Shown one piece after another: positions 35,699 to 60,600 of a stretch of DNA of 64,000 bases. The translations under genes and the position numbers were made by a program. Positions within the stretch are counted from its first letter, which is position 1, and every line of letters starts with the position of its first letter. The notes beneath the pieces are model-generated. The model had not been told where the DNA came from, ran no database searches, and was given only the letters and a program-made list of their open reading frames with translations. Origin of the DNA: Burkholderiales bacterium (lineage in GTDB: Bacteria > Pseudomonadota > Gammaproteobacteria > Burkholderiales > Burkholderiaceae_C); assembly GCA_016192425.1 (NCBI GenBank), contig JACPUE010000068.1, positions 62,001 to 126,000 of the forward strand, in the 5' to 3' direction.

Positions 35699-35731
35699 GG
35701 CAGCGCAGGATTGTACGCGTTCGAACGCTTC

Positions 35732-35786
35732 CATTTTGATAGCTGTTCACGCTTGATGGACAAGCGCTGCAGGCCAATTTGGCCTA
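35732..35786. repeat. Dispersed Comamonadaceae-type intergenic repeat, copy 1
   Basis: TTTTGATAGCTGTTCACGCT followed by ACAAGCGCTGCAGGCC is a longer copy of a repeat also found at 45410, 46719 and 60001. Its core reads ATAGCTG-n-CGCTT...AAGCGCTG with an inner inverted repeat (GCGCTT/AAGCGC type). It marks the chromosomal side of the boundary. Confidence 0.6.
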
Positions 35787-42873: not shown

Positions 42874-42894
42874 AAAAATGGCCTCCAGCGCGCG

Positions 42895-43494
42895 TCAATC
42901 CTGCGCATGGCGCTGCAAAAGGTATAGCAGCTGCGCGCGGGCTTCGGGCCATTCGCCGCTGCGCATGCTGTACATCACGGTGTCGCGGATGGTGCCGTCG
43001 CGGCGCAGTGCGTGGCCGCGGATCACGCCGTCCTTCCTGGCGCCCAGGCGTTCGATGGCGCGCTGGCTGGCGAAGTTGAAGTTGTCGGTGCGCCAGCCCA
43101 CCACGTGGCAGCCCAGCGTGCCAAAGGCGTGCCCCATCATCAGCAGCTTGGCGGTGGTGTTGACGTGGGTGCGCTGCACGCTCTGGCGGTACCAGGTCCA
43201 GCCGATTTCCACCCGGCGCACGGCCGGCACGATGTCGTGGTAGCTGGTGGTACCCAGCACCTGGCCGCTGGCGTCGTCCAGCACGGCAAAGGCGAAGCGG
43301 TGGCCTTGGGCACGGCCCTCCAGCGCGGTTTCGATGTAGGCGCGCGTGTCCTGCGGCTCGGGCACCGAGGTGATGCGCAGCTTCCACAGCTCGCCGTCGG
43401 CGGCGGCTGCGGCCAGGCCCGGCGCATGCTCCAGGCCCAGGGGCTCCAGGCGTACGTTGCGGTCTCTCAGGATGGTGGGTTCCACAAAGGCCAT
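42895..43494 (-). CDS. GNAT family N-acetyltransferase
   Basis: A 199-residue protein of the RimJ/RimL-like group: VRLEPLGLEHAPGLAAAA, YHDIVPAVRRVEIGWTWYRQSVQRT, then AFGTLGCHVVGWRTDNFNFASQRAIERLGAR, which carries the acetyl-CoA-binding and asparagine motifs. Substrate unknown. ATG 43494 was chosen because the family start falls here. Confidence 0.85.
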   Translation of the reverse strand: MAFVEPTILRDRNVRLEPLGLEHAPGLAAAAADGELWKLRITSVPEPQDTRAYIETALEGRAQGHRFAFAVLDDASGQVLGTTSYHDIVPAVRRVEIGWTWYRQSVQRTHVNTTAKLLMMGHAFGTLGCHVVGWRTDNFNFASQRAIERLGARKDGVIRGHALRRDGTIRDTVMYSMRSGEWPEARAQLLYLLQRHAQD

Positions 43495-45379: not shown

Positions 45380-45409
45380 GAGAGAACGCGGCCCTGGCGC
45401 CTGTGGAAT

Positions 45410-45437
45410 AAGCGCTGGAAGCTATTAAAACAATAGC
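45410..45437. repeat. Dispersed intergenic repeat, copy 2 (short)
   Basis: AAGCGCTGGAAGCTATTAAAACAATAGC shares the AAGCGCTGGA and GCTAT-AAAACAATAGC blocks with the copy at 60001, in a different order. It lies between the convergent cytochrome and DUF1841 genes. Confidence 0.5.
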
Positions 45438-45440
45438 AAA

Positions 45441-46711: not shown

Positions 46712-46718
46712 TTCGGTT

Positions 46719-46764
46719 GCTATAAAAATCATAGCTGCTAACGCTTTATTTGTCGGTGTTTCTG
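46719..46764. repeat. Dispersed intergenic repeat, copy 3
   Basis: GCTATAAAAATCATAGCTGC then TAACGCTTTATTTGT matches the copy at 60001 closely over 36 bases. Here it is non-coding, between the LysE and ParA genes. Confidence 0.6.
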
Positions 46765-46801
46765 GCGTTTTGATAGGTTTTCTGGGCAAGGAGGTCGGAT
46801 C

Positions 46802-57879: not shown

Positions 57880-59081
57880 ATGAAACCCAAGCCTTGTACG
57901 ACTATGCCCCGCTGGTGCGGCTCATGCTGCTGGGGGCCGCCATCGCCCTGGGGCCGTTGTCCTGGGTGGCGTGGCGCAGCCGGGGCGCTGCACACGGGCA
58001 GCGCCTGCAGGCGCTGATGGTGCTCACGCTGTTTCTGACCTTTGACCTGGTGATGTTCGGCTCGTTCACGCGCCTGACCGACTCCGGCCTGGGCTGCCCT
58101 GACTGGCCCGGTTGCTATGGCAATGCCAGCCCTCTGGGTGCGCGCTCAGAAATCACCGCCGCCGAGCAGGCCATGCCCACTGGCCCGGTCACCCATGGCA
58201 AGGCCTGGGTGGAGATGGTTCACCGCTACCTTGCCAGCAGCGTGGGGGTGCTCATCATCGCCATCACCGTGGGAGCCTGGCGGCAAAGACGCCAGTGGCA
58301 GCGTGAGGGCGCACGCGGTGCTGCGCCCCTGCACCCCGCCTGGGCCGCCGCCACCCTGGCGTGGGTGTGCCTGCAAGGGGCTTTTGGTGCATGGACGGTG
58401 ACCATGAAACTGTTCCCCGCCATCGTCACCCTGCACTTGATCGGCGGGTTGGTCTTGCTGGCCTTGTTGTGCGTGCAGGCGGTGCGGCAGGTGCATACCA
58501 CCCAGGGCACGCCGCGGGTGCAACTGCCCCGTGCGTTGCGCCTGGGAATGTGGCTGGCACTGGCGCTGGTGGCGTTGCAGGTGGCGCTGGGCGGCTGGGT
58601 CAGTACCAACTATGCCGTGCTGGCTTGCACCACCTTCCCCGCGTGCCACGGCAGCTGGTGGCCCGCCATGGACTTTACCCAGGGTTTTGAGATCTGGCGT
58701 CCGCTGGGCCTGCTCAGTGATGGCAGCCACATCGGCTTTGCTGCGCTCACGGCCATCCACTACGTGCACCGCTTGTTTGCCTACCTGGTGCTGGCGGCGC
58801 TGCTGGTGCTGGGCTGGCGCATGCTGCGTGCTGGCGGTGCAGGCCAGCCGGTGGCTGCGCAGGGGCGCTGGCTGCTGGCCCTGGCGACCTTGCAATTGCT
58901 CACGGGCCTGAGCAACGTGATTTTGGACTGGCCCCTGGCCGCAGCCGTGCTGCACACCGGCGGCGCCGCAGCGCTGGTGGGCGTGCTGGCCTGGGCGCTG
59001 GCGGGCAGCCGTGCCAGTGTGGTGCCGGTGGCATCGGTTTCGGCAGACGCTGCCCTTGCGGCAGCCAAGGCCAAGGCATGA
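57876..59081 (+). CDS. ctaA: Haem A synthase CtaA/Cox15
   Basis: A 401-residue, eight-helix protein. Motifs: [37 protein letters not shown] (His), [14 protein letters not shown] (His), [14 protein letters not shown] (His pair). It oxidises haem O to haem A. It overlaps the gene before it by ATGA. Confidence 0.94.
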
Positions 59082-59974
59082 GCGTGGCTGCCGCAGTGTC
59101 GCTCCCCTCGCGTCTGGCGCAGTACCACGCGCTGACCAAGCCGCGTGTGGTGCAGCTCATCGTGTTCTGTGCGCTCATCGGCATGGTGCTGGCGGTGCCC
59201 GGTGTGCCCACGCCCGATCAACTGCTGCGCATGCTGGTGGCCTGCCTGGGCATCTGGCTGGTGGCAGCGGCCGCCGCAGCCTTCAACTGCCTGGTCGAAA
59301 AAACCATAGACGCCAAGATGAAGCGCACCGCCTGGCGCCCCACGGCCAAGGGCGAACTGAGCGACATGCAGGCGCTGCTGTTTTCTGCGGTGCTGTGTGT
59401 GGCCGGCTCGGCCATCCTGCACGAGGGCACCAACCCGCTGACCATGTGGCTGACCTTTGCCACCTTTGTGGGCTATGCCGTCATCTACACCCTGCTGCTC
59501 AAGCCGCATACGCCGCAGAACATCGTCATTGGCGGCGCTTCGGGCGCCATGCCTCCGGTGCTGGGCTGGGCCGCCATGACCGGCGATGTGGCGCCGCAGG
59601 CGCTGATCCTGTTCCTCATCATCTTCTTATGGACGCCGCCGCACTTCTGGGCGCTGGCCCTGTACCGGGTGGAGGACTACCGCAAGTCCGGCCTGCCCAT
59701 GCTGCCGGTGACGCATGGCAATGCCTATACGCGCCTGCAGGTGCTTTTGTACACCCTGGTGCTGTTTGCTGCTGCCCTCATGCCCTTTGTGTCCGGCATG
59801 AGCTCCTGGGTCTACCTGGGCGCCGCCGTGCTGTTGGGCGCCGGTTTCTGTGCCTATGGTTTCGCGCTGTGGCGCAGCTACTCGGACGCGCTGGCGCGCC
59901 GCACCTTCCGTTTTTCCATCGTCTACCTCAGCCTGCTGTTTGCGGCCCTGCTGGTGGACCACTACCTGCAGTGA
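59078..59974 (+). CDS. ctaB: Protohaem IX farnesyltransferase CtaB/Cox10
   Basis: A 298-residue, membrane prenyltransferase of the UbiA family: [30 protein letters not shown] (Asp-rich active-site motif), [37 protein letters not shown]. It turns haem B to haem O, the substrate of CtaA encoded just before. Confidence 0.95.
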
Positions 59975-59985
59975 GCACTCCATCC

Positions 59986-60600
59986 ATGCCCCGTCGAAAT
60001 GCTATAAAAACAATAGCTGCTTGCGCTTTATTTGTAAGCGCTGGAGCCATTTTTTCTGCTTGTTCCAAAAGCCAGCCGGAGTTCCGGGGCGTGGACTTGT
60101 CGCAGATGGACTATGCGCGCGACTTCGCGCCGCTCAAGGACCACAACGGCCAGCAGCGCAGCATCCAGGACTTCCGCGGCAAAGTGGTGGTGGTGTTCTT
60201 TGGCTATACCCAGTGCCCCGATGTGTGTCCCACCACCCTGGGCGAGATGGTGGAGGTCAAAAAGATGCTGGGTGCCGACGGCGAGCGCCTGCAGTCCATC
60301 TTCGTCACTGTGGACCCTGAGCGCGACACGCCCGACATGCTCAAGGCCTACATGGCCAATTTCGACCCCAGCTTCCTGGCGCTGCGCGGCACGCCCGAGC
60401 AGACGGCAGCCATCGCCAAGGACTTCAAGATCTACTACAAGAAAGCCGAGGGCAAAACCCCCACGAGCTACACCATGGACCACTCGGCCGGCAGCTATAT
60501 CTACGACACCCAAGGCCGCCTGCGCGTGTACTACCGCTACGGCAGCGGCGCCGAGGCCATGGCGCACGATGTGAAGCAACTGCTCAAGGAAGCCCGTTGA
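59986..60600 (+). CDS. SCO1/SenC family copper chaperone lipoprotein
   Basis: A 204-residue protein with copper-binding CPDVCP (YTQCPDVCPTTLGEM) and the partner His in TMDHSAGSYIYD. It delivers copper to CuA. The N-terminus ends GAIFSACSKS, a lipobox. Most of this signal sequence is encoded by a dispersed repeat (60001-60055) with ATA, TTA and GTA codons that are rare elsewhere here. GTG 59971 overlaps the ctaB stop (GTGA) and may be the actual start, adding five residues. Confidence 0.93.
   Translation: MPRRNAIKTIAACALFVSAGAIFSACSKSQPEFRGVDLSQMDYARDFAPLKDHNGQQRSIQDFRGKVVVVFFGYTQCPDVCPTTLGEMVEVKKMLGADGERLQSIFVTVDPERDTPDMLKAYMANFDPSFLALRGTPEQTAAIAKDFKIYYKKAEGKTPTSYTMDHSAGSYIYDTQGRLRVYYRYGSGAEAMAHDVKQLLKEAR
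60001..60055. repeat. Dispersed repeat, copy 4, encoding the SCO1 signal peptide
   Basis: GCTATAAAAACAATAGCTGC, then TTGCGCTTTATTTGTAAGCG and CTGGAGCC. It shares its first 36 bases with the non-coding copy at 46719 and the AAGCGCTGGA block with 45410. Here it is read in frame and gives the hydrophobic part of the lipoprotein signal. Confidence 0.65.

Follow-up and report, generated by a model that had tools for sequence, protein, structure and literature searches.

How does a DNA repeat that lies scattered between the genes of a chromosome come to encode the core of a signal peptide? The question is raised by the SCO1/SenC gene in a 64,000-nucleotide stretch from a Burkholderiales bacterium (assembly GCA_016192425.1, contig JACPUE010000068.1, positions 62,001 to 126,000 of the forward strand), which is called the window here and whose own numbering is used. 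An earlier note on this DNA had proposed that a mobile repeat was taken up by SCO1 as a targeting signal. We consider it reasonably probable that the SCO1 signal holds an old chromosomal DNA motif, which is kept in trans and reused where one of its open frames encodes a hydrophobic segment. The gene, its predicted signal and the motif copies in the window are as follows.

59986 to 60600, plus strand: SCO1/SenC gene, 204 amino acids and stop (open reading frame; Pfam SCO1-SenC, PF02630, E 2.3e-46)
59986 to 60063, plus strand: predicted lipoprotein-type signal peptide to Cys26 (60061-60063), read from the sequence
60000 to 60054, plus strand: in-frame motif copy, SCO1 codons 5 to 23 (position weight matrix (PWM) score 79.9; sequence model R1, 63.4 bits)
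46718 to 46772, plus strand: motif copy between called genes (PWM 46.9; orthologous copy in the relative G022, 73.3)
45384 to 45438, minus strand: motif copy between called genes (PWM 52.9; about 1.3 kb of other DNA here in G022)
42875 to 42929, minus strand: weak fifth motif copy, absent from the earlier note (PWM 25.0; orthologous copy in G022, 30.6)
35726 to 35780, plus strand: motif copy between called genes (PWM 62.7)

From the ATG at 59986 the SCO1 protein begins as MPRRNAIKTIAACALFVSAGAIFSAC, and the motif copy within it is read as GCT ATA AAA ACA ATA GCT and onwards. The repeat is thus read in frame, provides the hydrophobic core of the signal and belongs to the same family as the non-coding copies, as had been claimed. 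The window copies scored 25.0 to 79.9 with the PWM, against a best score of -28.7 in five shuffled windows; the copies said to lie near 35732 and 45410 were recovered at 35726-35780 (plus) and 45384-45438 (minus), and the one given at 46719 is kin to the SCO1 copy, although the two share 32, not 36, of the first 36 bases and 41 of 58 in all. The codons are unusual, as the earlier note had also said, for in the mature parts of the 26 motif-bearing SCO1 orthologues described below ATA is used for 3 of 120 isoleucines and GCT for 17 of 419 alanines. The PWM was built from 141 of 157 copies of the own genome, with the listed coding copies excluded, and genes were called by our own codon model without annotation. 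Alignment A2 held 10 of 11 copies (L007 omitted) and alignment A3 held 35 of 36 (L025 omitted).

SCO1 was searched for in 60 genomes, the own genome included; 55 gave a match, and 50 of these were read (those other than G048, G049, G050, G052 and G059). Among the first 30 (the own genome and 29 relatives), 26 carried the motif in SCO1, with PWM scores of 17.2 to 79.9 and in a constant register, 14 nt after the ATG in 26 of 26. The four others (G002, G004, G007 and G027) scored -28.7 to -72.2, and none of the 20 further, more distant genomes carried the motif (-29.6 to -80.3). Comparing SCO1 N-termini with and without the repeat, as the earlier note had advised, therefore gave a clean split, 17.2 to 79.9 versus -28.7 or less. 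Across the family rows aligned, motif-free SCO1 aligned with the carriers without gaps and had a signal of the same length, so that no insertion was visible; judged from these sequences, the SCO1 motif would have come about by recoding in place rather than by insertion. Two things had been named beforehand as telling against uptake: one was found, in that relatives share the signal sequence, and the other was not, since the non-coding copies are related to the SCO1 copy.

The motif DNA in SCO1 is kept beyond the needs of the peptide, and its silent sites are held to the motif. When the peptide was recoded with the codon usage of the gene itself, none of 500 recodings reached the observed score in any of the 26 carriers; with uniform usage the result was again 0 of 500 per carrier, except in G028 (4 of 500). 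Recodings that favoured A and T reached the score in 41 of 5200 cases over the 26 carriers, 33 of them in G028, which marks G028 as a weak carrier. At codon 10, 25 of the 26 have ATA and one has CTA; at codon 11, all 26 have GCT. At identical residues, codon identity was higher in the motif than in the mature part for SCO1 (0.738 versus 0.634), SIMPL (0.781 versus 0.633) and GspD (0.832 versus 0.724).

The SCO1 copy also shares the fate of the dispersed copies. The dispersed family was present in 30 of the 36 genomes of family f1 and in none of the 24 others (E 1e-6), the highest counts per genome being at least 93. Within family f1, all 26 SCO1 carriers had at least 11 dispersed copies, and the nine SCO1 non-carriers had 0, 0, 2, 0, 19, 0, 1, 0 and 0; in G020 dispersed copies were present and SCO1 gave no match. 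In the SCO1 tree the in-genus non-carriers G002, G004 and G007 were nested among the carriers (support 95/94; 96/95 in a second tree), and a single clade of carriers without loss was rejected (approximately unbiased test, p-AU 0.009; 33 rows, G034 left out). The first tree held 8 of the 20 further rows and the second 4 of the 20, without G034. In G002 and G004, GspD, ECH_2 and SrkA were likewise without the motif (2 of 2), the result for G007 covering SCO1 only. G009, the neighbour of this trio, had 30 copies, and its SCO1 score (17.2) was the lowest among the 26 carriers. There has been a concerted loss, in which a clade with 0-2 dispersed copies also lost the motif from the export signals examined.

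The motif itself is an imperfect palindrome of about 55-68 bp with 44% GC, dispersed over the chromosome, with the consensus TGCTATTAAATTGATAGCTGCTAGCGCTTGATGGACAAGCGCTAGAGGCCAATTT and an extra preference for A about 6-9 bases past its 3' end. The SCO1 stretch had at least 40 BLAST places in its own genome (40 of 183 first-look candidates were scored), and two sequence models each gave at least 150 matches there. In the window and the stretches around the model matches of the own genome, 193 distinct copies scored above 20 with the PWM. Most of these (156) were intergenic or overlapped gene ends, 8 were N-terminal in the signal-peptide frame, 2 were N-terminal and antisense, and 27 fell within called genes, 14 of them antisense, 10 sense with the same frame and 3 sense with a different one; chance may account for some of the internal copies with low scores (28-40). 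The non-coding copies showed neither codon periodicity nor clear covariation of pairs.

As to their neighbours, 135 of 153 copies of at least 30 bits were intergenic with both neighbours called, and the tandem copies faced both ways (51 and 40). It was also observed that for 54 of the 135 the gene 5' of the copy was 0-9 nt away, and that only 6 of the 135 fell in gaps between divergent genes, compared with 41 of 248 comparable gaps. In G003, 77 copies were on the plus and 71 on the minus strand, with a coefficient of variation of the spacing of 1.07 and no strong chromosome-strand bias; the half-chromosome split gave p 0.0485, so that a slight bias is possible. A strand-polar chromosome motif, judged by these counts, is weak at best.

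The eight N-terminal in-frame hosts in the own genome were SCO1, SIMPL, an M16 peptidase, GspD, a Peripla_BP_6 binding protein, an ABC_trans_aux lipoprotein, a DsbD_N protein and a cytosolic-type GTPase (GTP_EFTU). By their mature domains, with the signal left out of account, seven of the eight belong to exported families. Looking for the repeat in other signal peptides of the genome, another check that had been proposed, thus spoke for the claim; the signal-peptide function of the in-frame copies is predicted from their sequence and from these mature domains. The GTPase (L285:1192-2499; own C39:9349), which we take to be CysN, starts with the in-frame copy MSNTINSIAASAVNTGAAGQND, which does not look like an obvious signal peptide.

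In the relatives, the motif was found in 11 of 14 GspD, 11 of 12 binding-protein (G013 with a score of just 0.2) and 9 of 12 SIMPL sequences; the binding-protein rows of G002 and G004 were omitted because their best matches were only 41-42% identical. With the own genome included, it was found in 11 of 15 ECH_2 sequences and, by a score above zero, in 11 of 17 SrkA sequences. Three of the four motif-free ECH_2 rows had the same length, and the fourth was longer by one residue. At SrkA (L170; orthologues L333 and L335), the motif-poor G002 and G004 keep CTGATAGCCAGCGG at the site that is shorter by 5 amino acids, possibly a relic of the motif.

A mechanism for such upkeep would have two parts. 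A trans-acting agent on the DNA, which might be a DNA-binding protein or a bias of recombination or uptake, would hold the sites to the motif, and coding DNA would host a site only where one of its open frames is tolerated. One frame of the motif reads (A)IK.IAA.AL.ISAGG, a ready hydrophobic core, and signal peptides of exported proteins would for this reason be favoured hosts. As far as can be read from its sequence, the motif peptide of SCO1 probably simply works as a normal signal peptide.

Several observations weigh against this reading. No trans factor was found. The SCO1 of G027 is without the motif despite 19 dispersed copies, as are SIMPL in the motif-rich G011 and G006, ECH_2 in the motif-bearing G028 and SrkA in G013, with SrkA of G028 borderline (-0.9). 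Motif-free SrkA is shorter by 5 amino acids in G002 and G004 or by 8 in G032 and G030, and equal in G013, a length gap that is compatible with a small insertion at this gene. The binding protein showed no excess of codon identity (0.639 in the motif and 0.698 outside), and the sequence pairs in the codon-identity comparison are not independent. The tree is that of one gene with 179 columns, and the clade test was chosen after the tree had been seen. Finally, in the pair counts described below, one stem pair stood about 3 standard deviations above its shuffles.

A wider proposal, which we offer tentatively, is that Comamonadaceae possess a system that resembles uptake sequences or marks the chromosome and uses a long motif (about 55-68 bp), whose upkeep would dictate amino acids, rewriting in place the signal peptides of core proteins (SCO1, GspD) and surface segments of enzymes, and which would decay everywhere at once when the recognising factor is lost. 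By analogy with known uptake sequences, this would fit the number of copies, the absence of a strong strand bias and the recoding in place. The uptake signal sequences (USS) and DNA uptake sequences (DUS) of Pasteurellaceae and Neisseria are 10-12 bp long, and a genome may hold as many as about 1,500 of them, according to the passages available of van Passel 2008 (PMC2346458). Hundreds of copies, no clear strand bias, a bias to gene ends inside genes and upkeep from outside are points of likeness with that description; the motif here is several times longer, and it is likened to them by its distribution, so that an uptake function would be by analogy only. If this is right, a DNA motif and not the needs of the protein determines part of the sequence in conserved exported proteins, the N-terminal likeness IKTIAA.AL.ISAG among unrelated exported proteins of these bacteria reflects shared DNA rather than ancestry or targeting, and the concerted losses are a natural experiment for finding the factor. 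The presence of motif-rich and motif-free species within one genus makes the question directly testable.

Among the alternatives, the one that survives best, though we regard it as unlikely, is that an element like a miniature inverted-repeat transposable element (MITE) or a repetitive extragenic palindromic (REP) sequence was inserted long ago within or next to the 5' end of genes for exported proteins, that its frame replaced their signals and that the copies have been inherited since. A dispersed palindromic family of about 190 copies, whose in-gene copies lie in open frames, is what such an origin would leave, and motif-free SrkA is 5-8 amino acids shorter; at the site of the 45384 copy, G022 carries some 1.3 kb of other DNA and no clean empty site. 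There are precedents as well. In the passages of Delihas 2007 (PMC2759123) that were available, the 168-bp enterobacterial element RU-2/YPAL lies within the signal peptide of Yersinia YPO1552, and relatives of the gene have unrelated signals. RU-2 is there one described case of an exported protein, with low conservation, and here seven exported proteins, with SCO1 and GspD in their number, are concerned across genera; silent-site upkeep and concerted loss do not occur in those passages, and both were seen for the present motif. A repeat-derived signal peptide thus has a precedent in RU-2, while the scale, the DNA-level upkeep and the concerted loss appear to be new. Rickettsia palindromic elements are inserts of 105-146 bp that lie between genes and in frame in proteins (Ogata 2000, as cited in the passages seen of PMC2229807); the motif resembles them as so described in both placements and differs in that most of the motif-free orthologues compared are of equal length.

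Equal length in motif-free SCO1 and in most ECH_2 also speaks against an old insertion. So does the sharing of copies with G022: 20 of the 193 could be placed with both flanks in 400 kb of that genome, and these comprised 19 orthologous copies and one weak likeness, with flanks mostly about 85-98% identical. Plain inheritance predicts neither the upkeep of ATA and GCT at silent sites nor the joint loss from SCO1, GspD, ECH_2 and SrkA. REP sequences and the transposases linked to them (RAYT) resemble the family in being short palindromes in many copies near gene ends; the Y1 transposase family PF01797, searched for in the 60 genomes, had no match in the own genome and does not follow the motif, with 4 matches each in the motif-free G002 and G007 and matches also in G004, and a RAYT/REP link was rejected. 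The constant register of the copy in 26 of the 30 genomes, the gapless orthologues, the 19 of 20 copies common to G022, the silent-site upkeep and the loss from SCO1 where dispersed copies were lost all argue against a recent uptake by SCO1. Of the idea that a mobile repeat was adopted as a targeting signal, what stands is that a repeat family forms the core of the SCO1 signal, and what falls is its recent insertion.

It is improbable that the motif acts as RNA, as a terminator or an mRNA-stabilising hairpin, with the coding copies as by-products. The motif can fold, and the closeness of copies to the gene on their 5' side (54 of 135 within 0-9 nt) and their low share of divergent gaps (6 of 135, versus 41 of 248) would suit such a role; for three of four folds, however, about 5% or more of the shuffles were at least as good, and over 188 copies the counts of base-pair changes were near those of shuffled columns, without the excess of compensatory changes looked for. 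The orientation of tandem copies is mixed (51 and 40), no Rfam family covered a motif copy in a scan of the window at gathering scores, and the copies 14 nt after the ATG are left unexplained. Neither the folds, nor the pair counts, nor the window scan gave good support for an RNA structure.

That the family was born from a segment of a signal-peptide gene spreading through the chromosome is very improbable. In its favour, 79 of 141 non-coding copies have an open signal-peptide frame, and the SCO1 copy is among the best-scoring. Against it, the information per codon phase is equal (1.11, 1.10 and 1.09 bits), 62 of the 141 have a stop in that frame, and a frame on the reverse strand is open just as often (84 of 141); this origin was rejected on the equal phases and the stops. 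Convergence of AT-rich rare codons and hydrophobic residues in signals, with an incidental likeness to the repeat, is scarcely credible, for although codons ending in A or T are common within the motif of the carriers (mean 0.64) and 33 of 200 AT-biased recodings reached the score of G028, the 41 of 5200 over all 26 carriers refute it for most of them, and the same DNA is present in six more exported genes and in several enzymes.

No description of the motif was found in the literature searched, which covered few subscription papers, and six Comamonadaceae genus names had no mention in PMC3733652 or PMC2817692. The beta-proteobacterial repeat element (BRE) of Bordetella is about 90 bp long, has 69% GC and is often in tandem, and it occurs in several Comamonadaceae, mostly between genes and in part in coding DNA, according to the passages available of Hot 2011 (PMC3110155). 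Compared by that description only, BRE and the motif are both dispersed and mostly intergenic, and the motif has 44% GC.

Beyond these genomes, a pattern scan of contigs gave at least 115 stretches, of which 80 of 115 were taken as loci with one pattern match each. An in-frame ATG lay within 60 nt in 30 of the 80 loci listed, where chance expects about a third, so that there was no ATG enrichment among the matches listed. At least 70 amino acids followed the motif in 12 of the 80, among which three M16-like, one ABC_trans_aux-like and one SIMPL-like protein were recognised by eye, all of them gene kinds already found; a few matches in bacteria from outside the order (e.g., Aestuariibaculum and Halalkalibacter) are probably due to chance. 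Among plasmids, the typed consensus matched 3 of 72,556 records, and the two matches examined were at gene boundaries.

The SCO1 gene is followed by an opposed sigma-70-type gene and preceded by a further gene, given as context only.

59078 to 59974, plus strand: UbiA-family gene (Pfam UbiA, E 5.6e-68), presumably a heme O synthase

Elsewhere in the window, at 2633-2787 on the minus strand, the Rfam family RF03018 (RT-15 RNA) gave a match of 100.3 bits, above its gathering score.
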